From the NCBI RefSeq assembly GCF_023973145.1, contig NZ_CP099546.1, positions 3,162,001 to 3,226,000 on the forward strand: a stretch of DNA of 64,000 bases, read 5' to 3'. The notes under the pieces were generated by a model that was not told the DNA's origin, searched no databases, and was given only the letters and a program-made list of their open reading frames with translations. The translations under genes were made by a program, and so were the position numbers. The DNA is from Natronosalvus vescus. Its GTDB lineage: Archaea > Halobacteriota > Halobacteria > Halobacteriales > Natrialbaceae. Every line of letters begins with the position of its first letter. The stretch's first letter is position 1. This document shows, one piece after another, positions 29,420-51,778 of this stretch.

Positions 29420-30877
29420 ATGCTTACTGGGTGGCGCTATCGCATTGCTGGATTTACAGGAACCGTGGCCATAGTCGTTGGCGCGGTTCTCCTCGCGAAC
29501 CATCCAGCCGCTCAGGCCCTGTTCACCACCCACGTTCCGTTGTTTAATCGGCTCGAGCCAACCGTTCTCGAGGGCGAGTCACGTCGCTGGGCGATTTTGT
29601 TGAGCGTCGTGTTCGTCGGTGGGGCGTTGCTTCCGTTGTACAAACCCCAACCACGACGGTTGCTCGACACCGTGTTTCTGGCACAGAAACGCGTCGTCGT
29701 CGGCGGGCTGGCAATGGCGACGCTCGGATACTTCAAATGGAGTCATCGACTCCCGCGCCAGACACTCGCGATGACCGTGGCGATTCTCGTCGTGGTAATT
29801 CCGCTCTGGTTCGTCTGGATGCGCCGCCGACCGACTGGAGAGCCCGGTCGAACGCTTCTCGTCGGCGACGACCTCGAGCAGATCGAGCAAATTGCGCCGA
29901 CGATCAACGCACCAGTGATCGGCTACCTGTGCCCCACGCGTATCGTGCACCACCAGGGGAAGGCTTCTGCGCGCATCGACGACGTGCTGACTGACGGAGG
30001 CACCGTCAGCGATTCGAGACTTGCCGAAATCGAAGCCACCATCGATCAGTACGGGCGACTTGGCGCGATGACCAGACTCGGCGGGCTCTCGCGCCTCGAG
30101 GACGTCCTGCTCGAGCACGACGTCGACACTGTCGTGCTGGCGTTCGCCCAGCCCGATCGGGCGGAGTTCTTCGGTGCGCTCGATGCGTGTCACGAACACG
30201 GTGTCTCGGCGAAAGTGCACCGAGAGTACGCCGACAGCGTGCTGGTGTCAGAAGGTGACGTGGGTGAGCTCGTGGACGTGGATCTCGAGCCGTGGGATCC
30301 GTTCGATCACGTATTCAAGCGGGTGTTCGACGTGATGTTCGCGACCGTTGGATTGGTCGTGTTCGCACCGCTTTTCGTCCTTATCGCCGCAGCCATCAAG
30401 ATGGACAGTCGCGGGCCGGTGTTCTACAGCCAGGATCGAACCGCTGGCTTCGGGGAGACGTTTTCCGTGTACAAGTTCCGGTCGATGCTTCCCGAGAGCG
30501 AGGACGTCAACCCGGGCGAAGACGACAGTCGCGTGACGCGCGTTGGGTGCTTCCTCCGGAAGACCCACCTGGATGAGTTACCTCAGCTGTGGTCGATCTT
30601 CGTCGGGGACATGAGCGTCGTCGGGCCACGAGCCGCCTGGACTGAGGAAGAACGGTTACTCGAGCAAGACGTCTCGTCGTGGCGCAAACGCTGGTTCGTG
30701 AAACCCGGGTTGACGGGGCTGGCACAGATCAACGACGCCAAGAGTACGGATCCGGATCTGAAGCTTCGATACGACCTCGAGTACATTCGTAAGCAGTCGG
30801 TGTGGTTCGATTTACAGATCGTGATTCGGCAGATCTGGAATGTGGTCGAAGACATCGCTGAAACCGTTCGTGATTGA
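29420..30877 (+). CDS. polyprenyl-phosphate sugar-1-phosphate transferase (WbaP/EpsE type)
   Basis: The 485-residue protein has four N-terminal membrane helices, a Rossmann-like middle domain (RTLLVGDDLEQIEQ) and a C-terminal sugar-transferase domain (VFKRVFDVMFATVGLVVFAPLF, YKFRSMLPES, RKTHLDELPQLWSIFVGDMSVVGPR, KPGLTGLAQI). Such enzymes put the first sugar phosphate on a lipid carrier, starting glycan assembly at the inner face. All catalytic motifs are present, although VGPRP reads VGPRA. It probably starts the pathway of this locus. Confidence 0.9.
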   Translation: MLTGWRYRIAGFTGTVAIVVGAVLLANHPAAQALFTTHVPLFNRLEPTVLEGESRRWAILLSVVFVGGALLPLYKPQPRRLLDTVFLAQKRVVVGGLAMATLGYFKWSHRLPRQTLAMTVAILVVVIPLWFVWMRRRPTGEPGRTLLVGDDLEQIEQIAPTINAPVIGYLCPTRIVHHQGKASARIDDVLTDGGTVSDSRLAEIEATIDQYGRLGAMTRLGGLSRLEDVLLEHDVDTVVLAFAQPDRAEFFGALDACHEHGVSAKVHREYADSVLVSEGDVGELVDVDLEPWDPFDHVFKRVFDVMFATVGLVVFAPLFVLIAAAIKMDSRGPVFYSQDRTAGFGETFSVYKFRSMLPESEDVNPGEDDSRVTRVGCFLRKTHLDELPQLWSIFVGDMSVVGPRAAWTEEERLLEQDVSSWRKRWFVKPGLTGLAQINDAKSTDPDLKLRYDLEYIRKQSVWFDLQIVIRQIWNVVEDIAETVRD

Positions 30878-31073: not shown

Positions 31074-31946
31074 ATGAACCAAAACGAACAGAGTGACGCT
31101 AATTCAGAGCGTGAAATAAGGGCGTCCAGTGATACCTTTTCGGTACTAATCAGTGTCTACAAAAACGATGATCCCAAGCATTTTCAGATTGCTCTCGAGA
31201 GTATTTTTGGTCAAACACTCGTACCTACCGAGGTCGTCATCGTCGCTGATGGGCCACTGACGTCGGAATTGGACGAAGTGATCGAGGAATTCGTTTTTCG
31301 ACATTTAGAAACAATACAGGTAGTTCGCCTCGAGACGAATCAAGGACTCGGTGCAGCACTTCGAACTGGACTCGAGGCATGTTCGTACGATCGGGTAGCA
31401 CGAATGGACGCCGATGATGTCGCCGTTTCAGAGCGTTTCGAAGAGCAAGTAGCGTATCTCAAGTCGAACCCAGACGTCGATGTCGTAGGGAGTCACGTCG
31501 GAGAATTTCGCACCGATCCAGAGAACGTTGACACTGTTCGATCAGTACCGTCCTCTGCGTCAGCGGTTGAATCGATGGCCCGCTTTCGGTGTCCGACGAA
31601 CCATCCCAGCGTGATGTACCGTCGTCAGGCTGTTCTCGAGGCAGGGAATTATCGTCCACTTCGATCGATGCAGGATTACGAGTTATGGATGCGGATGCTG
31701 TCACAGGGATATACGATCGAGAACCTTCCACAAGTTCTGGTGAAATGCCGAGCCGGAGAAGACCTCTATCGCCGTCGGGGCGGGTTGTCGTATGCTCGTC
31801 TCGAATTCTCTTTACAGCGTGAGTTCCACCGGTCAGGGATGATTTCTGGTGTCGAATTTATTCGGAATATTGTATACCGAGTTCCGATTAGACTGATTCC
31901 ATCTCGCCTCCGTGGTGCTATTTACAAGGTTGCGCTACGCGATTAG
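31074..31946 (+). CDS. family 2 glycosyltransferase
   Basis: The 290-residue GT-A enzyme has FSVLISVYKNDDPKHF, NQGLGAALRTGLE and the metal-binding RMDADD motif, then the acceptor-side MQDYELWMRML. There is no membrane segment apart from an amphipathic C-terminus. It adds a sugar to the lipid-linked glycan on the cytoplasmic side. Its stop overlaps the stop of the convergent propeller gene by 4 nt. Confidence 0.88.
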   Translation: MNQNEQSDANSEREIRASSDTFSVLISVYKNDDPKHFQIALESIFGQTLVPTEVVIVADGPLTSELDEVIEEFVFRHLETIQVVRLETNQGLGAALRTGLEACSYDRVARMDADDVAVSERFEEQVAYLKSNPDVDVVGSHVGEFRTDPENVDTVRSVPSSASAVESMARFRCPTNHPSVMYRRQAVLEAGNYRPLRSMQDYELWMRMLSQGYTIENLPQVLVKCRAGEDLYRRRGGLSYARLEFSLQREFHRSGMISGVEFIRNIVYRVPIRLIPSRLRGAIYKVALRD

Positions 31947-33294: not shown

Positions 33295-34392
33295 ATGGGA
33301 ACGGATCTGCTTTACATTGTTTCGACACTCCGTCGCAGCGGCCCTACGAACCAGCTCTATTACATCCTCAAATACCTTGACGAGGAGTTCGACGCTACGG
33401 TGTTGACGCTCTCACCAGAACCCGAGGATACCGAGCTCCCTCGATTTCGGAATCTCGACATCACGTACGATACGCTCGGTCTCTCTCGAGTCGAAGGCGT
33501 GACCATTGGGCCCAAGCGACTCCGCTCGGTGGTTTCCAAACACGATCCAGATGTTATCCATACACAAGGAATTCGAGCAGACACGCTTTCTGCCGCGTTC
33601 CTCTCCAAGTATCCTCGAGTGACGACGATTCGGAATTACCCGTACGACGACTACCCAGCAAAGTTCGGGAAGCTCCAGGGAACGGCAATGGCGTGGGAAC
33701 ACCTTCGCGTCTTCAACCGCTTGGATCAGCCTGTTGCGTGCTCCAAAACGATCGCTGGCATGGTGGAACCACACGGTATTGATGCGGTTCCGATACAGAA
33801 CGGTGTCGATCATCACAAGTTTACGCCGCCAACCGACTCGAGGAAGAAAGAGCTTCGGCGAGAGCTAGAACTTCCAGAAGAGAAACGGATCTTCGTTTCC
33901 GTCGGATCATTAATTCCGAGGAAAGATCCTGAACTGCTCATCCGTGGGTTTGTACAGAGTGACCTCAGTGACTCGTTATTACTTTTCTTAGGAGACGGTC
34001 CACTTCGTGAGTCGTGCGAGGAATTAGCTAGAACAACATCATCGATCAAATTCAAGGGTTGGGTAGAGAACGTCAATGAGTATTTACAGGCAGCAGATTA
34101 TTTCGTCACTGCTTCTCACTCTGAAGGCTTACCCAATGCAGTAATGGAAGCCTTGTCAACGGGGCTACCGGTATGTCTTTCTGATATTGATCCGCATCGA
34201 GAGTTAGTCACGAGTCATACTGAAGGTGTTTTTTTTGAAATAGGTAAGCGGGATAATCTAGAAAAAGCGTTACACACTCTTGTGAACAGCGACTACGAAC
34301 GGAATTCTAATTTGGCGCGCGATACGGCAGTGAATCAACTCAGTGCCGAACATATGTCCCATGAATATCAACAGATCTACAATAGATATTAG
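33295..34392 (+). CDS. family 4 glycosyltransferase
   Basis: The 365-residue GT-B enzyme has an N-terminal LRRSGPTNQLYYILKYL, the C-terminal donor domain FVSVGSLIPRKDPELLIRGF and the EX7E-type motif HSEGLPNAVMEALSTGLPV. It transfers a sugar with retention from a nucleotide donor onto the growing glycan. Codon composition becomes AT-richer toward the 3-prime end, marking the edge of the AT-rich core. Confidence 0.9.
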   Translation: MGTDLLYIVSTLRRSGPTNQLYYILKYLDEEFDATVLTLSPEPEDTELPRFRNLDITYDTLGLSRVEGVTIGPKRLRSVVSKHDPDVIHTQGIRADTLSAAFLSKYPRVTTIRNYPYDDYPAKFGKLQGTAMAWEHLRVFNRLDQPVACSKTIAGMVEPHGIDAVPIQNGVDHHKFTPPTDSRKKELRRELELPEEKRIFVSVGSLIPRKDPELLIRGFVQSDLSDSLLLFLGDGPLRESCEELARTTSSIKFKGWVENVNEYLQAADYFVTASHSEGLPNAVMEALSTGLPVCLSDIDPHRELVTSHTEGVFFEIGKRDNLEKALHTLVNSDYERNSNLARDTAVNQLSAEHMSHEYQQIYNRY

Positions 34393-36054: not shown

Positions 36055-37329
36055 ATGTCCACAAATTCTATTAAACAACACAAACTCAACTTCACAAGAC
36101 CATCTCAATATGTTCAATACATTTTGTATTTTAGCACATTTCTTGCACCCTGGTTTGCAATTTTTCCGACCAGTGCCGGTCTATATGAGTTCGTTATCAT
36201 AGGCCTATTCATATACATTATTGTATCTGATAATAAATTAGTAATGCCGGACAGACATGTTACTGCGGCTCTCTTTCTAGTATTTTTTGGATATTCTATA
36301 TCAGTATTCACAGCTCATCAACCACTTAATGCGGTTAGCTTTTCAATACAATTTGGATTCATATTATTGGTACAAGGATCTGTACTATACACACTTACTA
36401 GAAGTAGAATTGATCTGCACTATCACGCCGTAGCTCTAACGATTTCGTTAATGGTAATGATTCTATACTTCATTATTTCCGAGCCGTTTTTTGACAACTA
36501 CATGAATAATAGACTCGTTTTATTTTTTAGTAATCCAAACATATTTGCTCTCCATATTGCCCCAGCCACAGTATTAACGATATATATGTCTTACTCGAAA
36601 TGGAAACAGAGTCGGATACCACAGACTGCCATTTTTTCTGCCATAGCGATTATCGGGATTATTTTAATATTTCTTTCACAATCTAGGCGTGTGTTTATTT
36701 ATCTATTCATCTGTATTTTTCTCATTCTCGGTACCAATTTTGGACAGCGTACTCGATTGATTGAGTTAGTTATGAAAGGAACGGTGGCAGTAATATCCCT
36801 TGGATTAGTTGGGTTTTTAATGTATGTGTCTGGAATATTACCGCCAATATTCGCAGAGAGATTAGATGTTTTTGAGGGGCGCGGTTCATTAGAGAATAGA
36901 TATGTGCCGATACTATTAGCTGCCAGATACTTCAGTGAAACTATGATACTCGGGTCAGGATATAATAACTTTGAGTTACATTTGAATGACTTAGCAGTAA
37001 CAGCAGCAGAAGAACATTATGCTCACAAACCACATAATATGCTTATCATCCCATTTGTGGAGGGTGGCATTTTCGCCGGTTTTGGGATTTTAGCTTTAGT
37101 GGGCATTATTTGTTGGAGGTCGATCATCAGCTGGAGAGCAGGGAGGTTTAATAATTCAGAAGTCGAATTTGTGTTTGTAGCCTGTACAATTGCTTTCTTC
37201 GCGGCACAAATGTTTGGAGTTCTATCAATTTTACGAGTTAATTGGCTAATTATATTTTTAGGACTAGTATCACTCCATATTATAACAGACAAAACAAGGA
37301 TGTCCGAATTGAGGAACGGGCGAAAATAA
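36055..37329 (+). CDS. O-antigen ligase/polymerase (Wzy/WaaL-like) membrane protein
   Basis: The 424-residue protein has about eleven hydrophobic spans and a large extracytoplasmic loop. That loop has an HKPHNMLIIPFVEGGIFAG motif, the His/Asn signature of Wzy_C/O-antigen ligase proteins. It would join or polymerise lipid-linked repeat units outside the membrane. Very low GC; it ends 6 nt before the convergent glycosyltransferase stop. Confidence 0.82.
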   Translation: MSTNSIKQHKLNFTRPSQYVQYILYFSTFLAPWFAIFPTSAGLYEFVIIGLFIYIIVSDNKLVMPDRHVTAALFLVFFGYSISVFTAHQPLNAVSFSIQFGFILLVQGSVLYTLTRSRIDLHYHAVALTISLMVMILYFIISEPFFDNYMNNRLVLFFSNPNIFALHIAPATVLTIYMSYSKWKQSRIPQTAIFSAIAIIGIILIFLSQSRRVFIYLFICIFLILGTNFGQRTRLIELVMKGTVAVISLGLVGFLMYVSGILPPIFAERLDVFEGRGSLENRYVPILLAARYFSETMILGSGYNNFELHLNDLAVTAAEEHYAHKPHNMLIIPFVEGGIFAGFGILALVGIICWRSIISWRAGRFNNSEVEFVFVACTIAFFAAQMFGVLSILRVNWLIIFLGLVSLHIITDKTRMSELRNGRK

Positions 37330-37334: not shown

Positions 37335-38276
37335 TTAACGTCTTTGTCTAAATTTGTGCGATAAATAAGTAGCTATCTTGAACGTTTGTCTTCCGAAAAT
37401 TGACAATAATAAGAACACATATGCTTTGATGTTTTTCGGATCATATTTGAGAGATGTCCAGAAAAGTTGGCGAGAGGCGTGAATATTACCTTGATTAGCA
37501 TTTATGAAACCCCGGTTAAGTAACGAATTTGAAATCCATCTTTGATTAAGGACATCTGAATGCTTCTCAAATAGCATGGCTGAACCAAGCTCTTTAGCTT
37601 TTGTATTCGTTGAGATTCGATCATCATGGACATAGTGATTCACCTTCGGTTCATTCAATCCGTGAAAATAATATCCATTTTTTAATACTCGCAAATAAAA
37701 ATCGTAATCTTGTTTTGAAGGTAGCTCTTCATCTAACAGCCCAACTTCAGTTAGGATATCATGCTTAATTGTAACACAGGAAAATGATCCAATTTCGTTC
37801 CTTACTTTTAAATCACCTAACTGTGTTTTCCCATCAATTACTTCACTAACCTCCTTGGAACCATCATGGAAAACTTTTTCATATGATGTATAGACTCCAG
37901 CACAATCTGAACAAGATTTTTCAAAAGCATTGATTACAGACTCAATATAGTCTTTTTGGAATTCGTCATCTGAATCAAGGAATGATATGTAATCACCACA
38001 TGCTAATTTCACACCCGTGTTTCTGGCCGCGTTTGCACCCAGATTTTCCTCATGCCGAACTACACAATACCGAGTAAAGACTTCTTCAGGCACTGTGAGT
38101 GTTTCCTCAATTGGTTGGTCTGATCCATCATCCACAACAATCAATTCGAGATTTGTATACGATTGCTGGGTAACTGAGTTCACTGAACGTTGCGTTTGTT
38201 GGTGACGATTATATGTGGGTATGACTACTGACACAATCGGATCCGTACTTTTTTCAGTGATTGAATTGACCTTCAT
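37335..38276 (-). CDS. family 2 glycosyltransferase
   Basis: The 313-residue GT-A enzyme has VSVVIPTYNRHQQTQRSVNS, IVVDDGSDQP, the DxD motif FLDSDDEFQKDY and the C-terminal LPSKQDYDFYLRVLKNGYYF. A basic C-terminal helix may touch the membrane. The start overlaps the end of the upstream nitroreductase gene by 4 nt (ATGA), so the pair forms an operon opposite to the flanking genes. Confidence 0.88.
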   Translation of the reverse strand: MKVNSITEKSTDPIVSVVIPTYNRHQQTQRSVNSVTQQSYTNLELIVVDDGSDQPIEETLTVPEEVFTRYCVVRHEENLGANAARNTGVKLACGDYISFLDSDDEFQKDYIESVINAFEKSCSDCAGVYTSYEKVFHDGSKEVSEVIDGKTQLGDLKVRNEIGSFSCVTIKHDILTEVGLLDEELPSKQDYDFYLRVLKNGYYFHGLNEPKVNHYVHDDRISTNTKAKELGSAMLFEKHSDVLNQRWISNSLLNRGFINANQGNIHASRQLFWTSLKYDPKNIKAYVFLLLSIFGRQTFKIATYLSHKFRQRR

Positions 38277-39499: not shown

Positions 39500-40801
39500 A
39501 TGAACGGGAATCACCGAAAGGTCACTCGAAATCTTTCTTTAGTTGCATCCGTCGAGCGGGAATTCCTATCGAATTTAGTGTTTCCCGAGAATAGCCGCCC
39601 AAAATCCTTCGATGGACGAAAAAATATTGCTATAGTCGGTGGTGAGCTGTTCAACAAGGGGGCTCAAGCGATGACGTTTACCGTCGTCGATCATCTATCA
39701 AAAACATATCCCGAAAAGGATATTATCCTCCTTTCTGCGCAGGACTATCACCGACCACCCCACGAGAAATCACAGTACACTTTCGAAATACTGCCGTGGG
39801 ATCCTGAGGTTCACCTCTCTTTGCTTTCTCCCTCGATTACTACAGTAAACACTACTGAATATCCAAGCAGGGTGATGAAACAGGTTAGAGAATTATTTTC
39901 AAGCTGTGCTTGCCTAATCGATATAAGTGGCTATGCGTTCTCTTCCCAATTTAGCTTCAAACGTTCGTTCACGTACCTCACCAATCTCGTAATCGCTAAA
40001 AAATTCGGTATCCCACTATACATTTTTCCGCAATCAATCGGACCCTTTGACTACTCTACCCCGAAAAAACTCGTCTTTAACCCACTCATGCAAACGTATC
40101 TCCACTATCCTGAGGTAATTTGTCCACGAGAAAATGCAGGCGTCGAATCTCTCGCTCCGTACACACAAAGTAATGTACAACGGGAAAACGATATTGTCCT
40201 TCAGAACAAGGATTACGATCTAAAAAATATCTATTCAAGCCAGCCAGATATCGAACGCAGAGCAATTGACCCAAATGGAGTCGGAATTGTTCCCAATTCA
40301 AAGGTATTCGAACGTGCAGATCCTGAAGAGTTGTATTCGCTCTATGATGCAGCTATTGAAGAATTGCTTTCGAAAGATCGATCAGTTTACATCCTTAGAC
40401 ACTCAGTTGAAGACCTAGATCTTTGTAGGAATATAAAACGACGGTTCAGAGACGATGATCGAGTTGTTCTGATAAAGGAAGAGTTGAACGCGATAGAACT
40501 CGAATACATTATCGATCAGTTTGAGTTTTTGATAGGCTCTCGGTACCACTCGCTCATTCATGCATACAAGAACCATGTTCCTGTAATTGCTATAGGATGG
40601 GCCGTAAAATATGAAGAACTTTTGAAAAACTTTGATCAAGAAGAGTTCTTTTTCGAAGGACGTAAGCAGATTAGTGTGGATGAGTTCATTGATGCAATAA
40701 ACAGAATGAGTAAACAGTGTAGCCACGAATCTGGGGTCATTGAAACGAAAGTCAAGAGTATACAACAAGACGATTTGTTTAGTAGACTGTTTGGTGAGTG
40801 A
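39500..40801 (+). CDS. polysaccharide pyruvyl transferase-family protein
   Basis: The 433-residue protein has the two-domain PS_pyruv_trans pattern: NIAIVGGELFNKGAQAMT near the start, PLYIFPQSIGPFDYSTPK in the middle and the hallmark IGSRYHSLIHAYKNHVPVIAIGW near the end. These enzymes add a ketal-linked pyruvate to a sugar, giving an acidic surface polymer, or in some cases act as sugar transferases. The end overlaps the flippase start (GTGA). Confidence 0.88.
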   Translation: MNGNHRKVTRNLSLVASVEREFLSNLVFPENSRPKSFDGRKNIAIVGGELFNKGAQAMTFTVVDHLSKTYPEKDIILLSAQDYHRPPHEKSQYTFEILPWDPEVHLSLLSPSITTVNTTEYPSRVMKQVRELFSSCACLIDISGYAFSSQFSFKRSFTYLTNLVIAKKFGIPLYIFPQSIGPFDYSTPKKLVFNPLMQTYLHYPEVICPRENAGVESLAPYTQSNVQRENDIVLQNKDYDLKNIYSSQPDIERRAIDPNGVGIVPNSKVFERADPEELYSLYDAAIEELLSKDRSVYILRHSVEDLDLCRNIKRRFRDDDRVVLIKEELNAIELEYIIDQFEFLIGSRYHSLIHAYKNHVPVIAIGWAVKYEELLKNFDQEEFFFEGRKQISVDEFIDAINRMSKQCSHESGVIETKVKSIQQDDLFSRLFGE

Positions 40802-42312
40802 TCAAGGTGCCCCGGAATCTCGTTCGAGCTTTCCTCTCAATTTTGGGGACGAAAATAGGTGTTCTTTTTCTGGCTATACTTACTACACCGATTATTGTCC
40901 GTCTTCTTGGTAGTGATGGATATGGCGATTATGCTTTAGTGATGTCCGTATTCGGTGTACTATCTGTCTTTACCACATCGGGGATTTTCAATGGTATAAG
41001 GAAGTATATTGCTGAGGATCGATCCTTCAACTGCTGGAGCGATCACGTTTTCGCATTTTACTTTAAGGTGTCAGTGTTGGTTACGGGAGGGTTTGCGCTC
41101 TTCTTGATACTCCTCTCACAGACGAGACTCGTTGAAGAATCACTCTCAAGTGAGTTCCAGCTATATTTTTTAATCCTGGCGGCTTATCTCTTCCTTGATC
41201 AATTCTATTCAGTAGGAAGAGGCGCATTAATGGGATTCGGGTTAGAACACCACTCCGAACCTCTCAAAATTGTAAAAAAGCTCATATATGCAATAACAGC
41301 GATTGCATTACTATATTTTGGACTAGGTGTAGAGGGAGTACTCCTTGGCCAAGTTACTGCAGCACTGATTGTTGGTGTTACAACCCTTTGGTTGATCCGA
41401 GAACGGATATCTTTCGCACAGGTTTTTAGAAGATCTCACTCTATTCCTAAATATGAACTCTTGAGCTTCAATGTGTACAGCATATTACTTGCATTCTTAA
41501 CAATATCACTATATCACGTAGACATTCTAATTTTACGGCCAGTAGCTGGAAACGTCGAGACTGGCTATTACAAGGCTGCACTTGTTATTGCTGAGTTCCT
41601 CTGGATGGCTCCTATGGCAATCCAGTATACCCTTGTTCATTCAACTTCCGAAATGTGGTCAAAAGGGCAACACGAAACGATTACCGAAATTGCCTCCCGA
41701 TCAACGAGGCTTAACCTTTCTCTAATGGTTATTATGATGATAGGGTTAGCTGCTCTTGCAAACACTTTCGTTCCAATTTATTTTGGGTCTGAATTTTATC
41801 CAGCAGTTGTCCCTCTATTAATTCTTCTTCCAGGCGTACTTGGATTCGCATTAGCGCGGCCGATCTTTGCCATTGGTCAAGGTAAGGGCGAACTTCGAAG
41901 CCTAGTTCTTGCTACCGGTGCTGCTGCGGTGCTTAACCTGTGTCTGAATCTCTTGTTGATCCCATCATATGGGATGATTGGTGCTGCACTTGCGACATCT
42001 ATCGGATACGCCTCTATGTTTCTCTTCCACACTTTGATTGCACGGCGTATCGGTTTCGATCCGATCGCCGACCTTCGCGCGATTAGAATATTTGCTGCCG
42101 GTCTTCTCACTGCACCAGTAGTATTTGGTTTAGCAGAAGTTCTGACCCCCCTCTTTTCGCTTGTCGTCGTCCCAATTGTCGGTTTTATGCTGTATTTTGC
42201 ACTCTCCGTACAGTTAGGGGTTATCAGTACCGATGAATTAAAAATGGTTCATCAGAAAGCACCGAGCAAGTTCGATCCAATTTTCAAATGGATATTTGCT
42301 TTCAAGGGATAA
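40798..42312 (+). CDS. oligosaccharide flippase (Wzx/MATE-like)
   Basis: The 504-residue protein has about 14 membrane spans with the polysaccharide-biosynthesis flippase pattern: ILGTKIGVLFLAILTTPIIVRLLGSDGYGDYALV at the start, AALVIAEFLWM in the middle, ARPIFAIGQGKGELR near 350. It should move the lipid-linked glycan to the outer face. The GTG start at 40798 overlaps the pyruvyltransferase stop, so it is translationally coupled. Confidence 0.9.
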   Translation: MIKVPRNLVRAFLSILGTKIGVLFLAILTTPIIVRLLGSDGYGDYALVMSVFGVLSVFTTSGIFNGIRKYIAEDRSFNCWSDHVFAFYFKVSVLVTGGFALFLILLSQTRLVEESLSSEFQLYFLILAAYLFLDQFYSVGRGALMGFGLEHHSEPLKIVKKLIYAITAIALLYFGLGVEGVLLGQVTAALIVGVTTLWLIRERISFAQVFRRSHSIPKYELLSFNVYSILLAFLTISLYHVDILILRPVAGNVETGYYKAALVIAEFLWMAPMAIQYTLVHSTSEMWSKGQHETITEIASRSTRLNLSLMVIMMIGLAALANTFVPIYFGSEFYPAVVPLLILLPGVLGFALARPIFAIGQGKGELRSLVLATGAAAVLNLCLNLLLIPSYGMIGAALATSIGYASMFLFHTLIARRIGFDPIADLRAIRIFAAGLLTAPVVFGLAEVLTPLFSLVVVPIVGFMLYFALSVQLGVISTDELKMVHQKAPSKFDPIFKWIFAFKG

Positions 42313-42524: not shown

Positions 42525-44951
42525 TCACTCCACCTCAAGCGTCGCGGCACCTGCCACATCTTCCTCGGAAACGACTACCTCTTCACCATCAATCAAATAA
42601 GTACCAGGATTCGAAACTGTCACCTCGAGTTTCCCGTCTTCCCCAACCGTCACTGTTCGCTCGTATTCTAACGACTCACCCGACACGAAAATGTCGCCGC
42701 TGACGATCACGTTCTCGCCCGATTCACTGCCGACCTCTAGCGTCGCACCAGGAACCAGTGCGAATGCTGCCACGGATCGATCGTCGTCGACGTACAACAG
42801 TTGGTAGTGCTCGAGTGGCTCGCCATCTCCCTCTCCGACACCCAAGCCTTCGAGTAGGTGTGTCTGAACAGTCCCCGAATGCGCTTCCCTATCAGTCACG
42901 AGGACGTACCCAACTCTGTCACCAAACGCCTCGTGATAGCGGTCTGGATCGTCGTCGAGCCGGAAGTCGTCGAAGTTCGATCTGGCATAGCCGTACCCGC
43001 GAGATTCCCCGTTCACGAAGTAGTTATGCATCCGGTTGTCCCCCCAGTGGCTCAACACGTAGTTGCCAGGGAATTCACGCTCGGTTTCGTTTGCGTGTTC
43101 CTCGATCGCCATGACGGCCTCGTACTCGGGATCATCGTAACTTACCTGGCCTGCAAGACCCGGCGCGTAAATGAGGCTCATCCCGCAAATGAGCAACCCG
43201 ATTCCGACGATATACGCTGTCGTCTGTACATCCGGAGCCGTAATGACTGGATCGTCACCACCGCCATCAGCTCGTGCTGGCGTGACAGGCTCTGGCGACC
43301 GAAACGGCATCGGACGTCGAACCAGATCGAGCGTCGAAAGGACGTAGACGAGTCCAACCCCGCCGAGGACGGACAGCGGGATCGCGAGCTGTGCGGCAAA
43401 CCGGATCTGAATACCGGCGAGCACCGTGAGGATGATCGTGTAGACGCCGAGAAGCAGCCACGCTGGTTCGTAGTCACGGTAGAGGGCCCAGCATACCCAG
43501 CCGAGAATAGCCATGGCCAGATAGAAGCTGACCCCGAGCTGGATGACCGGGCCGAATATCACGCCGTAGTCGAACGTGAACAACGACGCGGATTCCGTAT
43601 ATCCTTCTCGAAGAAAGAGGTCGTCAGCCCGTGCTCGTGCCTGCGCCCAGTCGTCGGGTCGATACGTCCGAAGCAGGTACACCCCGAGGCCAGCAACGAC
43701 CGCCTCGAGCGCCGCCAGTCCACCGACGTGGATCTCGAGGTGACGCCACAGGTCTCCCAGTGCCATCACGGCGATCGCCCCACCGAGAACCATCGCGGGC
43801 GTGTACGCCACGAACGCCAGTCTCCAGTCCCAGCTGGTGTGCATCCAGACCGAAATCACTGTCCCAATCACGAGGCCCCCGAGCACCGGCAGGTTCGCTA
43901 ACGTCGGTGAGATCCCCTCTCGAACGTCGAGGAGCGTTCGAAGGCCAATGTACGCCGCAAACGGGATGAACAACAACGGCGAGCCGCCCCAGAGGTGTAC
44001 CGAAAATCCGAGGGCCACGCCGAGGACGACCGCCCACAACCACGTCACTGGAGACTCGAGATGGCCGCGAATCGCCTCCTGAGTCTCGCTATCCTCTCGT
44101 CGTCGAGTGAAGTCCACAGCGAGCCAGGCCAGCGCCAACAACGTCACGCCAAGCCAGAAGTACTGGTGGAGTCGGTGCTCGAGAAATCCAATCTGTGTGT
44201 ACACAACGTGAACGGGAGCGATAGCGAACAGAACGACTGAAGCGATACCCATCCGTGGGTCTCTTGTCACAACAACAGCCAGCGCGTAAATCACGACGCC
44301 GAGGGCGATCGACGCAACAACCGGAAGCCAAGCGGCAACCATATCGGCAGCCCACTGGTCTCCGCCGAGCAACGTTGCGAACCACCAGTTGAGTGCATGA
44401 GTCAGTGGCCGGCGAGACATGGCACCCGCAGGCATCTCAGCAAGCAACCCGATGTCGGTCGGACTCGTCGACTCCGCCAGCAACTCCTCCATCCAGTAGC
44501 GATAGTGGTACGGGTCGTTCCCCGGGGAGACGACGTCGTCGCCACGCATCACCGACCCGTACTGGGTAATCCGCATTACGAACACCAGCAGTAGCGCGCC
44601 AGCCAACCCAAGGAGTGCTCGCACGTCGCCCCAGATCCCCAGATCGATCGACGGGAGGGTTATCGACGGCCCACTGTCGCTCGAGTAAGCCCCTATATCC
44701 TCGCCAGCAACCACCGCAGCAACAATTTCCCGATTTACCAGTTGATATTCTCCGTCGACTTTCTCAACGATCCCTCGAGAGACCAGCTCGCCAAACGTTC
44801 CCGAATCGAGTTCGACGTCGTCGAACGTCCACGTCTCGTGTTCCGCATCGACCTCGAGGACGGCCTCGAGTGCCCGTTCCCCGTCGGGTTTCTCCTCGAG
44901 GAACGTGGCCGTCGCGTCCACAAGTGCACTCGAGTCGCCGTCATCGCTCAT
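42525..44951 (-). CDS. STT3/AglB-like glycosyltransferase homologue with N-terminal winged-helix domain
   Basis: The 808-residue protein starts with about 85 soluble residues resembling a winged helix (TWTFDDVELDSGTFGELVSRGIVEKVDGEYQLV). About 12 membrane spans and an outer C-terminal domain follow. The first acidic motif is kept (GNDPYHYRYW, 144-153). The usual DHHxxE-like loop reads EHRLHQ (258-263), and the WWDYG signature is replaced by HWGDNR (635-640). It is therefore an STT3-fold protein, but not a standard oligosaccharyltransferase. The ATG at 44951 is used because the extension to 45110 is unlike the family. Confidence 0.8.
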   Translation of the reverse strand: MSDDGDSSALVDATATFLEEKPDGERALEAVLEVDAEHETWTFDDVELDSGTFGELVSRGIVEKVDGEYQLVNREIVAAVVAGEDIGAYSSDSGPSITLPSIDLGIWGDVRALLGLAGALLLVFVMRITQYGSVMRGDDVVSPGNDPYHYRYWMEELLAESTSPTDIGLLAEMPAGAMSRRPLTHALNWWFATLLGGDQWAADMVAAWLPVVASIALGVVIYALAVVVTRDPRMGIASVVLFAIAPVHVVYTQIGFLEHRLHQYFWLGVTLLALAWLAVDFTRRREDSETQEAIRGHLESPVTWLWAVVLGVALGFSVHLWGGSPLLFIPFAAYIGLRTLLDVREGISPTLANLPVLGGLVIGTVISVWMHTSWDWRLAFVAYTPAMVLGGAIAVMALGDLWRHLEIHVGGLAALEAVVAGLGVYLLRTYRPDDWAQARARADDLFLREGYTESASLFTFDYGVIFGPVIQLGVSFYLAMAILGWVCWALYRDYEPAWLLLGVYTIILTVLAGIQIRFAAQLAIPLSVLGGVGLVYVLSTLDLVRRPMPFRSPEPVTPARADGGGDDPVITAPDVQTTAYIVGIGLLICGMSLIYAPGLAGQVSYDDPEYEAVMAIEEHANETEREFPGNYVLSHWGDNRMHNYFVNGESRGYGYARSNFDDFRLDDDPDRYHEAFGDRVGYVLVTDREAHSGTVQTHLLEGLGVGEGDGEPLEHYQLLYVDDDRSVAAFALVPGATLEVGSESGENVIVSGDIFVSGESLEYERTVTVGEDGKLEVTVSNPGTYLIDGEEVVVSEEDVAGAATLEVE

Positions 44952-45160
44952 TGGAAAGCAGGTGAGTGTATAGGGCCATGATAGTTTCGTTCTGCAGAGC
45001 AACGGGTGTAGTGGTGGAAAGCCCTGTACTATGTCCACGACAGTTATACCCCGAACGCGACCAGCTTGAGGAGAACTCGAGATGACTACATACAACCAGG
45101 ATGAGAACACCTATATCGGGCCACTCACATCCACGATACAATGTTCGAGCGTGGTATGCG

Positions 45161-46294
45161 ATGTCGATAATAGACGACGAAGGCAATCTCTTTGGCGTCG
45201 TCAACGTGATCGACGCACTCGCTGTCTTGTTGATTCTAGCCGTCCTCGTCGTGGGAGTCGCTGTTGTCGGCGTCATGTGGAGCGACGGCGAACCGGAAAC
45301 GCGATATGCGACGATCGATCTCGGCGAACAGCCCGACTACGTGGCCGACCGAATCGAACCGGGTGACCGAATGGCCGTCGAGGGATACGACCAGAACGTG
45401 ACGATTACGGACGTCTACGTCACATCCACACCCGATGACGACAACGCCGACGCCGGCCCGTCCATCGTCGTCCGCGCCGCAGTCGACGGCGAACTCATCG
45501 AGAACGACCACGGCCGCCTCGAGTTCACCCACGCGGGCGATCGTTTCCGCGCAGGCAACGAACTCACCCTCGACATGCTCGAGTACACGGCCACCGGCGT
45601 CGTCACGACCATTGACCAGGAGGGAGACACCCTCGACACGCAGACGACGACCGTCCTGCTCGAGTCGACCCTCCCCGCGAGCACGGCCGACGCGATCCAG
45701 GTCGACGACGAGTTCGGCGTGGCGGGCCACACCTTCGCGACGGTCACCGAGGTTCGAACGTACGCCGTCGGCAGCGACCAACGACGGGTGCAAGTCGGCC
45801 TCGAACTCGAGACCATCACACGCGGATCGACGCCCCACTTCGCGGGCAACTCGGTCGCGATCGGCTCCGACCTGTCGATAACAGCCGGCGAGTACGCCTT
45901 CACCGGCGACGTCATCCGTATCGGCTCACTCCAGGAGGCAGGCGACATCGACGAGACGACGGTCGAACTCAAACTCGAGAACGTCAACCCCGATCTCGCG
46001 GATAGCCTCGAGGCCGGGATGACCGAGACCGAGCGCGGCGAAACGGTTGCCACCGTCCAAAGCGTCGAGAGCCAGCCCGCGGAGGTCGTCCTCGAGAGCG
46101 AGGACGGAAACATCTACCTTCGCGAGCACCCGAAGAACATGGACGTCCGACTCGTGGTCGACGTACAGACCGTGGAGACCGAATCCGGTCTCCGATTCAA
46201 GGGTGACTCCCTCAGAGAAGGAAACACGATCCACCTCGACTTCGGCTCGATTTCGGTCGACGGAATGGTGACCACGATCGACCACGACGACTAA
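45161..46294 (+). CDS. DUF4330-family membrane-anchored protein
   Basis: The 377-residue protein begins MSIIDDEGNLFGVVNVIDA with one membrane helix (LAVLLILAVLVVGVAVVGVMW), and about 320 outer residues follow with repeated beta-strand blocks ending in GxVTTID. The leader plus helix is the DUF4330 signature. Function is unknown. It is divergent from the STT3-like gene and 6 nt upstream of the next gene, so it forms an operon with it and is likely part of glycan export or attachment. Confidence 0.8.
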   Translation: MSIIDDEGNLFGVVNVIDALAVLLILAVLVVGVAVVGVMWSDGEPETRYATIDLGEQPDYVADRIEPGDRMAVEGYDQNVTITDVYVTSTPDDDNADAGPSIVVRAAVDGELIENDHGRLEFTHAGDRFRAGNELTLDMLEYTATGVVTTIDQEGDTLDTQTTTVLLESTLPASTADAIQVDDEFGVAGHTFATVTEVRTYAVGSDQRRVQVGLELETITRGSTPHFAGNSVAIGSDLSITAGEYAFTGDVIRIGSLQEAGDIDETTVELKLENVNPDLADSLEAGMTETERGETVATVQSVESQPAEVVLESEDGNIYLREHPKNMDVRLVVDVQTVETESGLRFKGDSLREGNTIHLDFGSISVDGMVTTIDHDD

Positions 46295-46300: not shown

Positions 46301-47059
46301 ATGCTCGAGTCATACCGAGAAGGATCGGTACTCGCCAGTGCCGCCCGCCGCTGTCGAGCACGCGTCACATCGGTGAGCAACGGATCGCGGCTCCTTGAGC
46401 GGGCTGGATCCCTCTACAGCTCACTTCGACGCCGAGCCACCGGCATCGGTTCCCGACTCCAGCACACCTTCGAACACTCCACGATCAGCAAACGGACTGC
46501 TGGCACCCGTACACGAATCGCAACGGCAGCCGCCGAAGCGAGCGTCCGATCGCTCGGAACGACCCTCCAGCGGTACGTTACTAGCTCGTTTGGCTACCAG
46601 TGGCTGACCGCAGAGCCAAACCCCGACGTCATCGTGATCGACCTTCGTGAGACCGTCGTCGGCACGCTCGTAATTCGACCGCTCGAGTGGACGATCGAGA
46701 CGATCACGGACGCCTCGAGCGACTCGCGACTCGTCGAACCCCTGCACTACGTTCATCACGAATTCCGGAGCAATCCAATTCGGCTACTCGGATTTGCTGG
46801 CCTCGCGAGCATCCCACCCCTCTTCGGTGTCCTCGCACTTACCGGGAACCTGTCCGTTGTGACGACCGCCGGAGTCGTGGTGCTGGCCGCAGCAGCTGGG
46901 CTCGCGACTCGAGCTCGATGGTCGTTGGACGAGTTGCTGGAAACCCGGGTCGCAAAAGCACTCGCTGCAACGTTCGAGCCACCGGCCCCACCAGAGAGAG
47001 CGTCCACTGATGGGAACGATGAATCGACGTCGGAAGACGATACTGACCGAGAATCTTAG
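46301..47059 (+). CDS. membrane protein of unknown function in the glycan locus
   Basis: The 252-residue protein starts with a basic amphipathic region (SYREGSVLASAARRCRAR, then about 80 more Arg-rich residues), related to the short helix shared with other proteins of the locus. Two hydrophobic helices follow (LLGFAGLASIPPLFGVLAL and VVTTAGVVVLAAAAGLAT), then a Ser/Asp/Glu-rich tail. No known family. It is co-transcribed with the DUF4330 gene, and its stop overlaps that of the convergent pyrophosphorylase. Confidence 0.65.
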   Translation: MLESYREGSVLASAARRCRARVTSVSNGSRLLERAGSLYSSLRRRATGIGSRLQHTFEHSTISKRTAGTRTRIATAAAEASVRSLGTTLQRYVTSSFGYQWLTAEPNPDVIVIDLRETVVGTLVIRPLEWTIETITDASSDSRLVEPLHYVHHEFRSNPIRLLGFAGLASIPPLFGVLALTGNLSVVTTAGVVVLAAAAGLATRARWSLDELLETRVAKALAATFEPPAPPERASTDGNDESTSEDDTDRES

Positions 47060-47799
47060 TCGTCGCTCGCAACCGCCATCGCATCCTCACGCTGTTCCAG
47101 CCGCCGTTCGGCCTCGTCGCGATCCTCGGGATAGCCGACGTCGATCCGCCAGCCGTCGATGCCGATCGCGTCGATCGTCCGACCCGACTGAATCAACAGG
47201 TCGATCGCCTCGCTGATCTCGTACTCCCCACGATTACTGGGCTGCACGAGATGGCAGGCGTGGAAGATCGCTGGCGAAAAGGTATAGAAACCAGTCATCA
47301 CGAGGTTCGACGGCGGCTCCTCGGGCTTTTCGACCACGTCGGTGATCTCGCCGTACTTGTTCGTATCACAGACCCCATAGCGAGAGGCATCCTCCCAGGA
47401 CACTTCCTCGACCAGGAACGCGGCATCCGCGCGCTCCTCGCGCTGTCGGCGTACCACGTCCTGTAGATTCGCCTCGAAGATATTGTCGCCCAGGATCAAC
47501 ATGAAGTCGTCGTCGATGTGCTCCTCGACGGTCAACAGCGCGTGAGCCAGCCCCTTCTGCTCACGCTGGTGGCAGTACCTGATCGGGACGCCCTGATAGG
47601 AATCGCCGTAATGATCGATGATCTTCTCTTTCAGATAGCCGACCACGACGACGAACTCGTCAGCGCCCAGCTCGAGCAACTGATCGAAACAATGCGTCAA
47701 GATCGGTTTCCCTGCAACCTCGACCATCCCCTTGGGTTTGTCGTCGGTGAGTGGCCGAAGCCGGGTTCCTTTCCCCCCGGCGAGAACGACTGCTTTCAT
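47056..47799 (-). CDS. sugar-nucleotide pyrophosphorylase (glucose-1-phosphate uridylyl/thymidylyltransferase type)
   Basis: The 247-residue nucleotidyltransferase has LAGGKGTRLRPLTDDKPKGM (nucleotide loop), ILGDNIF, GVCDTNKYGEITDVVEKPEEP and GWRIDVGYPED. It makes UDP- or dTDP-sugar from sugar-1-phosphate and NTP, supplying the glycan pathway; AglF of N-glycosylation is the closest type. The ATG at 47799 starts the canonical MKAVVLAGG. A relic of a UDP-sugar dehydrogenase lies just beyond its promoter. Confidence 0.88.
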   Translation of the reverse strand: MKAVVLAGGKGTRLRPLTDDKPKGMVEVAGKPILTHCFDQLLELGADEFVVVVGYLKEKIIDHYGDSYQGVPIRYCHQREQKGLAHALLTVEEHIDDDFMLILGDNIFEANLQDVVRRQREERADAAFLVEEVSWEDASRYGVCDTNKYGEITDVVEKPEEPPSNLVMTGFYTFSPAIFHACHLVQPSNRGEYEISEAIDLLIQSGRTIDAIGIDGWRIDVGYPEDRDEAERRLEQREDAMAVASDD

Positions 47800-47919
47800 C
47801 AACTCTAGGTGTAAATTCGTCGTACAATAACTTTCTGGCTTGCCAGTGAACCAACACCTCGCCGGTGACAACAACGTTCATCGCACCACAGCAACACGCC
47901 GCACTCAATCCACGTCAAC

Positions 47920-48184: not shown

Positions 48185-51100
48185 TCATGGGTCGTTCTCC
48201 TGATTAGCATCCGTACTGACCCGTTCTCGAAGCCAGTAGCCAGCGCCAGCGAGTCCTGCGAGAGCGCCTGCAATTCCAAATCCGGGTGATTGGTCGTCCA
48301 CCTCGTGATCATCCCCAGTCACGGCGCCCCCATCCTCGGTCGTGCTGTCGTCATCTCCGATCTCGTTGTCGTCATCCCCGGTCGTGCTGTCGTCGGACGA
48401 GCTATCCGAATTGGAGTCCGTAGCGGCTTGAACCTGGAATGAGCGTGTATGGCTATCGTCGTCCGTCTCGACGGTGAGTTCGTACTCCCCAATCGAAAGT
48501 CCCGCCGTGTCGAGGGTGACTGTCCGCTCGAGGCGCTCGCCGTTTTCGAGTGACGACTCAACCAGCTGGTCGGTGAGCACGGTGTCACCTGCTTCGTCGG
48601 TGATCGTTGCGACAACGTCTTGCTCTCCCGCAACTCCCCGATTACGAATGGTCACCGACACCGGTGCTTCAGTGTTCTCTTCGACGGACTCGGGGAAGGC
48701 GACCTCGTTGAGTTCGAACACCGGCGTGTCCTCGTCGACGAGGGTCACGCTGGCAGTGTGATCGATCGCGTCTGTGACGATCCTATAGTCGTACACGCCA
48801 GTCTCGAGGCCATCGGTGTCGGTCTCGAACTCGAGTGTTGTCGACTCGTCCGCAGCCAACGCGACTGGTCGGCGCTCGACGGCCTCGCCAGCGAACTGAA
48901 ACTCGATGACTTCCTCAATCGGCGTTGGCCCCGTGTTAATCACGGTAGCGGTAACCTGGGCTGTATCGCCAGCGACGAGCGTATCTAACTCGGATAGCTG
49001 CTGAATCGAGAAGGCATGCTCCCATGCAAGTACCGGATACTCGTCGGTCACCGCCCACGTTTCCTCGAAGTCGAACCCATCCAGGGTAGAGATAGCATCT
49101 TCACCGGTCATCTCATCGGTGTTCAGCGCTGTGCTACCGCCGTCCGAAGTCCCCACCCCTGTCGTGTCGACGTCCCAGTAGGAGTCGGTGACGCTACCGT
49201 CCGAGTTATTCGCGACGACCCCGCCCCCATCACCCTCGAGCGTGGCACTGGCGTAGGACGTGCTTACAATCCCGCCGAAGACGTTGAGTCCGAGCACGCC
49301 GGCAACGTCGCCACGTCCGCTCACCACACCGCTCGCATAGGAGTTCGTAATGCGGTCGCCGGAGGATTGGCCCATGATTCCCCCGACCTTCCGTTCTCCC
49401 TGTACGTTCGCGTGTGAGGCGGCCTCAGAGATGACGACGTCTTCGCCGTCCTCGCCGGTTGTCGTGCCGCCAATGATCCCCCCGACGTTGTCCTCGCCGA
49501 CGACGGTTCCCGAGACGGTAACGCGAGAAATCTCTGTGGGGCTTTCAGCCATCCCCACTAGCGCACCGACGAAATCGTCACCGGTCACGTGCACGTCCAC
49601 GAGGTGAAGGTTCCTGATCGTTCCCCACATGACGTTGCCGAACAGGCCGATCCCTTCGAACTGATCGACGGACTCCTCGAGGTGCAGACCCGTGACCTCG
49701 TGATTGTGACCATCGAATGTTCCCGAAAACGGCTCTCGAAGACTTCCGATTCGAACGAACCGCTCGAACCCGGAGAGGTCGATATCCTCGGCGAGATCGA
49801 AGTGGGCTGATGGCTCGAAGTCGACGTACGCGAGTTCCGTTCCGGTGGTGATTCGATACGGATCGGCGTCCGTGCCATCCCCCTCGGTGGGGGGTGTGGC
49901 CAGGATCACCGTCTCTTCATCGGTTGTTTCTCCCCACGTGGCGCTGACCGTCAGTTCGTCTCGGTCGTATCCGTCGGTGGGGACGTTGAGAGAGACCGTT
50001 TCCGTCTCGCCGACCGATGGTGAGACCGTCACCGTGTCGACGACATCGCCGTCGACTGCACAGTCGATCGGAAGATTGGTCAAGTCATCCGCATCACCCC
50101 CGATCACCCGCACAGCGATCTCAACGGTGACTGCGTCACCGGCTACGACCGCCCGCTCGGCGTCAACGTCGATCGACAGCGCCGGCTCGTTTGGCGTGCC
50201 GATCGTTATCGTATCGGTTGCCACTGGGTCGAGGCCCTGTGGATCGTCGTCAACGATTGTCGCCGTCACCTCCTGTCCCTGCTCGAGTGGGATCCCATTT
50301 TCATCTGCCTCGAGTGGGAGGGTGACCGTCTCGCTGGTGCCTGGATCGACCTCTGCCAGCACGACCGCTCCGCCCTGTTCGGTCTCGAGGCGGAGCATTG
50401 CCTGATCGCGAACCGAATACCCTGACGAGAGATCGTACGTTATCCTCACCGTCTCATCGCCGGCAGCCGGCGTCTCGACGAACTCCACTCGCCCATGGAC
50501 GGCGGCCGATTCTGATGTGAGCGCCGCATTGCGATTGGTACGCCCGGCTTCGAACAACTCGACTATCACCATTTCGTCATCAGCGAGCGGCGTTGCCAGT
50601 TCGACGTGCACACGGTCGTCCACAGCGGGATCAAATCCGTGTGTCGAGTCGGTGAGTTCACCGCGTTCGTCGCTGAAGACACGCAGTTCGTACTCCTGGT
50701 CGTCCTGGGCTCGTGCGAGAACGGTCACCGTCTCCTTCCCGATTGCCGGCGGCTCGGCAAACGAGACGAAGTGGGGGACGACATGTTTCCGGTGAAATGC
50801 GATGAGTTCCTCGGTGACGGGACGGTGGCCGATATTGGGGTACACCTCGACTCGACCGGTTGCCCCGGAGTCCTCGTAGACCGATTTGCAGTAGGGCATC
50901 CGGTCATTTTGCATGTGCTCACCATAGACCTCGAGAGCGATATCGCGCTGGGTCGGGTTCCAGGCATCGTCGTAGGGGATCGTATCGTTCTCGTCGTCCC
51001 CACCCATATAGACCAGTTGGTCGACCGCTTGCCACTGGTCACGGTCGAATGCTTCCCCGGTGAGTGACTCGAGGTCGGCGATGCCGATGTGGTAGTTCAG

Positions 51101-51778
51101 AGTTTGGCCCTCTGCCTCCTCGAGAGGCAAGATGGCGGTGCCGTTGATGCCTCCGGCGGTAACCGACCGCACGCGGTCGGGATGGAGGGCGGTGAACCGA
51201 TTGACGAAGGTTCCCGACGCCGAAAATCCGTTCATGATGATGTCCTCGGCGACAGGATAGGACTGTACCGACAGGAGTTCCTTCGCGTGTTGAACCATCC
51301 GCAGGAGCTGTTCGTCCACACGCTCGAGATCGCCGGAGTCGATCTGCATCGTCTCGGTATCGAGGGCGTGGACGTAGTGTCGCCAACTGACCGGATCCGA
51401 GGACGGTCGCGGAAACACCGGAACGAGAACCGGAACCCGAAGCTCGTCACCGATCCGTCTGGGTGTCCCGTACTCGATCAATCGCTCGGCAGACTCACGG
51501 TGGACATCGAAGTCGTCCGTGGCCGTTCCCGTGTTGTTCGGCTCTACGAGGAGGGGTCGGTTGAACGCATCGTCGACCGCTGGCGCGTACAGGTAGTACG
51601 GATAGTTGAACCCGAAATCGCCATCAGCCGGAATCAAGGTGACGTCCATTCCCGCACCACCAACCGATTCGTTGCCGGTGGCACCGGCGGCCGTTCCAAT
51701 CAGCCCGCTGGCCGCGGCGACGGTTCCAAAAAGTCCCGACCGTAACACGTCTCGGCGGCCGAGCCCAAACTCAATCAT
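48185..51778 (-). CDS. giant secreted alpha/beta-hydrolase with GLUG, CARDB and PGF-CTERM parts
   Basis: The 1197-residue protein has a twin-arginine leader (GRRDVLRSGLFG). Residues about 40-345 are an esterase-like domain with nucleophile motif NGFSASGTF and His in PNIGHRP. Ig-like CARDB-type segments (about 345-635) follow, then a beta-helix of GLUG-like repeats (DFVGALVG, DNVGGIIGG, RKVGGIMGQ, GDVAGVLG; about 660-870). Two more CARDB-type domains, an Asp/Ser-rich stalk and a PGF-CTERM anchor (SPGFGIAGALAGLAGAG) end it. It is an exported, surface-anchored hydrolase with binding modules; substrate unknown. Confidence 0.8.
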   Translation of the reverse strand: MIEFGLGRRDVLRSGLFGTVAAASGLIGTAAGATGNESVGGAGMDVTLIPADGDFGFNYPYYLYAPAVDDAFNRPLLVEPNNTGTATDDFDVHRESAERLIEYGTPRRIGDELRVPVLVPVFPRPSSDPVSWRHYVHALDTETMQIDSGDLERVDEQLLRMVQHAKELLSVQSYPVAEDIIMNGFSASGTFVNRFTALHPDRVRSVTAGGINGTAILPLEEAEGQTLNYHIGIADLESLTGEAFDRDQWQAVDQLVYMGGDDENDTIPYDDAWNPTQRDIALEVYGEHMQNDRMPYCKSVYEDSGATGRVEVYPNIGHRPVTEELIAFHRKHVVPHFVSFAEPPAIGKETVTVLARAQDDQEYELRVFSDERGELTDSTHGFDPAVDDRVHVELATPLADDEMVIVELFEAGRTNRNAALTSESAAVHGRVEFVETPAAGDETVRITYDLSSGYSVRDQAMLRLETEQGGAVVLAEVDPGTSETVTLPLEADENGIPLEQGQEVTATIVDDDPQGLDPVATDTITIGTPNEPALSIDVDAERAVVAGDAVTVEIAVRVIGGDADDLTNLPIDCAVDGDVVDTVTVSPSVGETETVSLNVPTDGYDRDELTVSATWGETTDEETVILATPPTEGDGTDADPYRITTGTELAYVDFEPSAHFDLAEDIDLSGFERFVRIGSLREPFSGTFDGHNHEVTGLHLEESVDQFEGIGLFGNVMWGTIRNLHLVDVHVTGDDFVGALVGMAESPTEISRVTVSGTVVGEDNVGGIIGGTTTGEDGEDVVISEAASHANVQGERKVGGIMGQSSGDRITNSYASGVVSGRGDVAGVLGLNVFGGIVSTSYASATLEGDGGGVVANNSDGSVTDSYWDVDTTGVGTSDGGSTALNTDEMTGEDAISTLDGFDFEETWAVTDEYPVLAWEHAFSIQQLSELDTLVAGDTAQVTATVINTGPTPIEEVIEFQFAGEAVERRPVALAADESTTLEFETDTDGLETGVYDYRIVTDAIDHTASVTLVDEDTPVFELNEVAFPESVEENTEAPVSVTIRNRGVAGEQDVVATITDEAGDTVLTDQLVESSLENGERLERTVTLDTAGLSIGEYELTVETDDDSHTRSFQVQAATDSNSDSSSDDSTTGDDDNEIGDDDSTTEDGGAVTGDDHEVDDQSPGFGIAGALAGLAGAGYWLRERVSTDANQENDP

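Follow-up and report, generated by a model that had tools for sequence, protein, structure and literature searches.

Does the STT3-like gene in this window (the whole stretch of DNA analysed here, 64 000 nucleotides from Natronosalvus vescus) encode a second oligosaccharyltransferase (OST) beside AglB and, if so, from which donor and to which acceptor would it transfer a glycan? The first-pass annotation had described an STT3-fold protein with altered catalytic motifs, possibly acting on a different acceptor and carrying a cytoplasmic sensor domain. The open reading frame proved genuine and lies on the minus strand, which had not been given. The longest frame spans 45110-42525; the start backed by homologues is the ATG at 44951, which gives a protein of 808 aa. 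The chromosome that carries it is haloarchaeal (3.84 Mb), and the named homologues of the protein come from Natrialbaceae (Halobiforma, Halopiger and Natrialba). The name STT3L was coined here for the haloarchaea-wide clade to which it belongs. Coordinates are collected in Table 1.

Table 1. Features of the STT3L gene and of its surroundings (window coordinates)
Feature	Coordinates	Strand	Basis or remark
STT3L gene, divergent STT3/AglB-fold protein, 808 aa	42525..44951	-	AlphaFold2 model; Foldseek match to AfAglB 7e9s
N-terminal winged-helix domain, residues 1-86, predicted cytoplasmic, EMC3/DUF106 N-domain homologue	44694..44951	-	AlphaFold2; hhalign
First acidic motif NDPY (NDPYH 145-149), D146 = AfAglB D47	44508..44519	-	N-D-x-Y in 60/60
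Second motif E258-H259-R260 = AfAglB D161-H162-H163, within GFLEHRLHQ 255-263	44172..44180	-	profile alignment
TIXE-equivalent GYTE, E453 = AfAglB E360	43593..43604	-	kept in 59/60
R517 = AfAglB R426, near phosphate site	43401..43403	-	60/60
HWGDNR (635-640) where WWDYG(H) expected	43032..43049	-	W636 59/60, R640 60/60, N643 60/60
C-terminal barrel resembling AglB_L1 (PF18079), residues 735-780	42612..42749	-	Pfam; 55/60 members match
PAP2 phosphatase, possible lipid-diphosphate recycling	26772..27473	-	
PF02397 polyprenyl-phosphate sugar-1-phosphate transferase, genome's only copy	29420..30877	+	~12 kb from STT3L
GT2 glycosyltransferase	31074..31946	+	
GT1 glycosyltransferase	33295..34392	+	
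Wzy_C, O-antigen polymerase/ligase-like	36055..37329	+	
GT2 glycosyltransferase	37335..38276	-	
Nitroreductase-family protein inside glycan cassette	38273-39412	-	C-terminal half matches PF00881
Polysaccharide pyruvyl transferase	39500..40801	+	
Wzx-type flippase, convergent neighbour of STT3L	40798..42312	+	
DUF4330 protein, recurrent STT3L neighbour	45101..46294	+	
252-aa protein, recurrent DUF4330 partner	46301..47059	+	no Pfam match at E 0.01
AglF UTP-glucose-1-phosphate uridylyltransferase	47056..47874	-	NF041313, 440 bits
Large secreted CARDB protein	48185..51778	-	PGFG + hydrophobic tail by eye; TIGR04126 unmatched at 1e-5

The structure of STT3L was predicted by AlphaFold2 with 60 homologues (pLDDT 89.5, pTM 0.83). 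Helix count and loop order of the model agreed with the 13-TM OST plan of the GT66 fold, which has the loops EL1, EL2 and EL5 and a globular C-terminal domain. The top PDB match found by Foldseek was Archaeoglobus AglB (7e9s, E 1.2e-20, TM 0.62), and OSTs made up 18 of the 19 matches at E<=0.001, which bears out the STT3 fold claimed from the letters alone. A phmmer search of the PDB with the single protein gave no useful match; the family profile did align to AfAglB, and the C-terminal region aligned with the AglB C-terminus (hhalign E 5e-15). The bacterial OST PglB, which uses an undecaprenyl-PP donor, resembled STT3L in fold (5ogl and 6gxc, E ~1e-8) and would also resemble it in having a PP-linked donor if the reading given below is right. 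PglB has no close sequence relation to STT3L and, unlike it, retains the WWDYG pocket. The GT-C enzymes ArnT and PMT were distantly similar in fold (5f15, E 1.3e-6), far more weakly than AglB, and their donors differ.

STT3L was then set against AglB. Under the AglB model TIGR04154 (curated cut-off 450 bits) the window protein scored 91-100 bits and STT3L members 74-182, so that they fall outside AglB as this model defines it. A canonical AglB, the absence of which would have counted against the first-pass annotation, is encoded separately in the same genome. Replacement of AglB by STT3L was ruled out, an AglB above the cut-off being present in 37/37 STT3L genomes checked. The phylogenetic comparison with AglB gave a separate clade: when 76 membrane domains (32 of them STT3L) were placed in a maximum-likelihood tree, which does not fix the root, a branch of length 2.07 and support 100/100 split the STT3L rows off from all others, outside the AglB clade. 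An STT3L match was obtained in 268 of 391 haloarchaeal genomes and a strong one (E<=1e-50, our own threshold) in 215, leaving ~45% of the sampled haloarchaea without STT3L. The rest of the phylum, outside the haloarchaeal class, gave only weak partial matches, to ordinary AglBs; within the phylum as sampled, STT3L appears to be restricted to haloarchaea. The genes are already known, since NCBI names members ‘STT3 domain-containing protein’, and a literature search found no paper treating them as a group.

In order to compare active sites, STT3L residues were matched to those of AfAglB (O29867) residue by residue through a family profile alignment, and motif conservation was counted across 60 STT3L members. 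In AfAglB the metal is bound by D47 of the Gly-Asn-Asp motif and by D161 and H163 of Asp-His-His, and the TIXE residue E360 lies in the second shell (PMC8342417). D146, E258/R260 and E453 of STT3L correspond to D47, D161/H163 and E360, and R517 to R426, which is close to the phosphate. Residues N145, D146, H259, R517, R640 and N643 were invariant across the 60 members. Position 258 was E in 36/60, D in 23/60 and H in 1/60, and position 260 (the H163 equivalent) was R, H or Q. One STT3L sub-group has D-H-H as in AfAglB; that of the window protein has mostly E-H-R or D-H-Q. The motifs NDPYH, EHRLHQ and HWGDNR were all present as first annotated (within residues 145-149, 255-263 and 635-640). The oddness ascribed to EHRLHQ was not upheld: 59/60 members have E or D at position 258, H259 is invariant, and the change is unremarkable because the canonical AglB of the same genome has Q-H-H there. 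(This AglB, L002, reads QLQHHVAE, and canonical AglBs of Natrialbaceae often have Q for the first metal Asp, QHH vs DHH in AfAglB.) A fourth motif, EGYTES, had been overlooked; it aligns with TIXE. STT3L thus has the motifs that characterize the STT3/AglB/PglB superfamily, namely both acidic metal motifs and the Glu of TIXE (D146 in 60/60, E/D258 in 59/60, E453 in 59/60). Because the motifs are conserved in 60 members across many genera, chance was ruled out. On this alignment STT3L appears to keep the metal and catalytic residues D146, E/D258-H259, E453 and R517, and the phrase ‘altered catalytic motifs’ fits mainly the Ser/Thr pocket, the metal site being essentially conserved.

The likeness to AglB (GT66; TIGR04154, PF02516, O29867) extends to the 13-TM STT3 fold, the GND first motif, the D/E-H-x second motif, the TIXE Glu, the Arg at the phosphate site and the AglB_L1-like C-terminal barrel. 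STT3L differs from AglB in its own clade, its extra N-terminal winged helix, its linkage to PF02397 and its lack of WWDYG and PF22627. The WWDYG motif occurred in 0/60 STT3L members and is present in the genome's own AglB. Its place is taken by a conserved motif of the W-x-x-N-R-x-x-N type (xWGxNRMYNYFVNGES or variants). The match of HWGDN to WWDYG is positional (strand VLS/VMS, loop, helix; VLSHW/VMSWW), and hhalign of the stretch alone was not significant. The AglB core domain PF22627 was found in none of the 60 members at E 0.01; the own-genome AglB matched it with 58.7 bits. The +2 Ser/Thr pocket thus appears to have been lost throughout the clade, as judged from the 60 members examined, so that acceptors would not be limited to N-X-S/T sequons. 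To our knowledge, this sequon is regarded as universal for OSTs. The altered acceptor site noticed earlier is consequently a property of the whole clade. A different acceptor is plausible given the lost pocket and the separate AglB, but the acceptor may still be asparagine with the +2 rule relaxed. STT3L could also be ordinary in its acceptor, as a second N-X-S/T OST that differs from AglB only in its lipid-PP donor and in which W636, R640 and N643 make up a cryptic Ser/Thr site. These residues are nearly or fully invariant, and one and the same site accommodates a PP-linked donor in PglB and a P-linked one in AfAglB (PMC8342417). We consider this improbable, however, since PF22627 is missing and WWDYG is otherwise found in nearly every AglB of the phylum (18/20 of the non-haloarchaeal relatives sampled).

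Evidence on the donor came from gene neighbourhoods. The main recurrent partner in 43 STT3L neighbourhoods was a gene for a PF02397 polyprenyl-phosphate sugar-1-phosphate transferase, often directly adjacent and in the same orientation. PF02397 enzymes make polyprenyl-PP-sugar. In whole-genome coordinates PF02397 lay within 25 kb of STT3L in 33/38 cases vs 1/35 for AglB of the same genomes, and 20-kb windows contained it at 22/38 STT3L loci vs 0/40 control loci. Over the 391 genomes, 202 had both genes, 13 STT3L alone, 39 PF02397 alone and 137 neither (odds ratio 55). Because this co-occurrence could reflect shared ancestry, a comparison was made within genera: in the 15 varying ones, PF02397 was present in 78/82 STT3L-positive vs 9/70 STT3L-negative genomes (CMH p 7e-23). 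BacA/UppP and PAP2 lipid-diphosphate phosphatases recur near STT3L, UppP/BacA adjoining it in several loci and UppP on named plasmids. DUF4330 was found in 11/38 STT3L loci vs 0/40 controls, and PGF-CTERM proteins were not significantly enriched among STT3L neighbours. The tie of STT3L to a dolichyl pyrophosphate (Dol-PP) pathway, through PF02397 and the PP phosphatases, is one of genetic linkage only and suggests a Dol-PP donor. AglB of Hbt. salinarum uses dolichyl monophosphate donors (PMC11980604; PMC6591318).

The N-terminal domain was modelled with the topology H-H-H-strand-strand-H (pLDDT ~92 over residues 11-80), that is, as the winged helix first proposed. It had been called odd for an outer-face enzyme. 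OSTs have N-in topology, which places the domain in the cytoplasm, and topologically nothing is odd about it. A Foldseek search of the PDB with the domain gave generic winged helices, none with E<0.1, and no specific relative; a Pfam search with it alone gave weak, scattered matches. Kinship to SAKe designs, raised by PDB profile matches, was rejected as composition artefacts, no stretch passing by itself. The domain profile matched haloarchaeal proteins of the EMC3/TMCO1 type (PF01956) at their N-terminus (hhalign probability 98%, E 2e-13). The combined profile had matches in 59/59 genomes, and those matches that were read, which were not all, were EMC3-type or STT3L. The own-genome EMC3 bears the same domain. 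Homology with these EMC3/TMCO1/DUF106 insertases is confined to the ~80-residue winged helix; beyond it EMC3, an Oxa1/YidC-type insertase as described for DUF106 (PMC8887752), is unrelated to STT3L.

The net charge of the domain is -19 over 86 residues and the mean charge of helix 3 (DSGTFGELVSRG) is -1.4, haloarchaeal proteins being acidic generally. Neither a basic recognition helix nor a basic wing was found in the domain, which is suggestive only in view of haloarchaeal acidity. A DNA-binding role is unlikely on these sequence grounds, and DNA binding and sensing were both ranked low, as the domain is acidic and helix 3 has no net positive charge. The supposed cytoplasmic sensor is thus probably cytoplasmic and probably not a sensor. 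Because of the EMC3/DUF106 homology and the strong acidity, we prefer to guess that the domain may be a docking module in membrane-protein biogenesis. Its presence in EMC3 as well hints that glycosylation and membrane-protein insertion are connected in archaea. The common domain would also suit an inactive pseudo-enzyme with a regulatory or scaffold function, e.g. an EMC3-associated chaperone. This is very hard to credit with metal and catalytic residues conserved in 59-60/60 members and only one ligand position variable.

A known case of glycosylation resembles what would be expected of STT3L. Asn-2 of the Hbt. salinarum S-layer carries a GalNAc-linked repeating-unit glycan assembled on Dol-PP; bacitracin blocks its transfer, which still takes place when Ser-4 is replaced by Val, Leu or Asn (PMC2952790, review). 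A second OST was suspected, and the exception stayed unexplained because genome sequencing gave one OST gene (PMC2952790). The role of AglB at Asn-2 is still undecided (PMC6591318), and an AglB-independent N-glycan of Hfx. volcanii is likewise without an OST (PMC8241124). One genome of our set (G018) encodes a bacteriorhodopsin identical to the solved protein and so comes from Hbt. salinarum or from a very near relative. The distance from its STT3L (C1:932302-934620) to csg, the S-layer gene (TIGR04216, 1181 bits), is 3.3 kb, and GlmS, two GlmU-like genes and PF02397 come after STT3L. The csg-STT3L-GlmS-GlmU-PF02397 block recurs in G353; in G319 csg is 20 kb away, all within 30 kb. Adjacency to an S-layer gene is not general (1/38 STT3L loci). 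With the cleavage site placed by analogy, the mature G018 S-layer protein (L248:13947-16487) is predicted to begin Ala-Asn-Ala-Asp, so that Asn-2 would be present without Ser/Thr at +2. Three other S-layers from STT3L-positive Halobacterium genomes (L252, L253, L258), a small sample also cleaved by analogy, gave two Ala-Asn-Ala-Ser and one Ala-Asn-Glu-Val. A Dol-PP donor and indifference to the +2 Ser are what is predicted for STT3L together with PF02397. Glycosylation of Asn-2 had never been tied to a gene, and the link to STT3L is proposed here. A +2-independent OST would explain the Ser-4 result, which makes STT3L a candidate for the enzyme behind this glycosylation.

Some STT3L copies adjoin surface glycoproteins and the +2 pocket is lost, so an enzyme of haloarchaeal O-glycosylation, acting on the Thr-rich stem of surface glycoproteins, was also considered; the assembly genes of these O-glycans are unidentified (PMC10384203). 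The known haloarchaeal O-glycan is however a small Glc-Gal disaccharide (PMC2952790) that would have no need for PF02397 and Wzx, and ~45% of the sampled haloarchaea do without STT3L. We hold this reading to be quite improbable.

In the window, STT3L borders a low-GC cassette at ~34-42 kb (36-44% GC vs ~60% elsewhere). The cassette (34000-42000) was apparently imported and holds Wzy_C, GT2, a nitroreductase-like protein, pyruvyl transferase and Wzx. AglF and DUF4330 lie on the opposite side of STT3L, where DUF4330 and the 252-aa protein form a recurrent pair (45101-47059, plus strand) divergent from it. These surroundings resemble an EPS locus (Wzx, Wzy_C, pyruvyl transferase), so a polysaccharide or a lipid is also conceivable as acceptor. 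STT3L would then be a polysaccharide ligase or polymerase moving a Wzx/Wzy-type Dol-PP glycan to a glycan, lipid or chain for EPS or capsule, with no protein acceptor. The family nearest to the window PF02397 protein is EPS_sugtrans, 4/60 members of STT3L have a lectin-like LamG C-terminus, and the pocket that was lost is the peptide +2 pocket. Set against this, the OST architecture is kept, including the AglB_L1 barrel and the TIXE loop, which binds the peptide backbone in AfAglB; a Wzy_C protein is already present in the window; and in Halobacterium the gene is syntenic with csg. On balance a ligase seems possible but doubtful.

We favour, with a probability of roughly 0.5, a second, haloarchaea-specific OST-type enzyme that would act beside AglB on Dol-PP-linked glycans with a relaxed sequon. 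At the cytoplasmic face the PF02397 transferase would load a sugar-1-phosphate onto dolichyl phosphate, glycosyltransferases would lengthen the product into a Dol-PP-linked glycan and the Wzx-type flippase would turn it outward. STT3L would then take the glycan off Dol-PP en bloc and attach it to a cell-surface acceptor through D146, E/D258 and E453, with R517 near the phosphate. The most likely acceptor would be an asparagine of a surface glycoprotein of the S-layer type, in a relaxed context, and UppP or PAP2 phosphatases would recycle Dol-PP. The cytoplasmic winged helix would probably dock STT3L to a partner also used by EMC3 in membrane-protein biogenesis. The 13 STT3L genomes without PF02397 and the 39 PF02397 genomes without STT3L speak against this mechanism. 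More tentatively, STT3L may be the missing second haloarchaeal OST itself, transferring Dol-PP repeating-unit glycans to Asn without +2 Ser/Thr and coupled to membrane-protein biogenesis by its EMC3 domain. It would then represent a widespread, overlooked OST clade, and the Asn-2 question is now testable by one deletion.

Several minor observations were made on the two families. The C-terminal ~150 aa of the longer STT3L proteins of 980-1014 aa (L065-L068) form a lectin domain of the LamG/concanavalin type (PF13385, E 4e-19 to 3e-26), and two STT3L homologues on Haladaptatus plasmids have the same LamG-type lectin domain according to their annotation. A second STT3L copy at G084:C1:2937861-2940290 contains three in-frame stops and is an apparent pseudogene. 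The winged helix is an extra N-terminal domain on haloarchaeal EMC3/DUF106 proteins (e.g. L139, and L182 in the own genome at C1:2644126-2645055), and some genomes have a divergent second EMC3 copy with an N-terminal winged helix (L176-L180).
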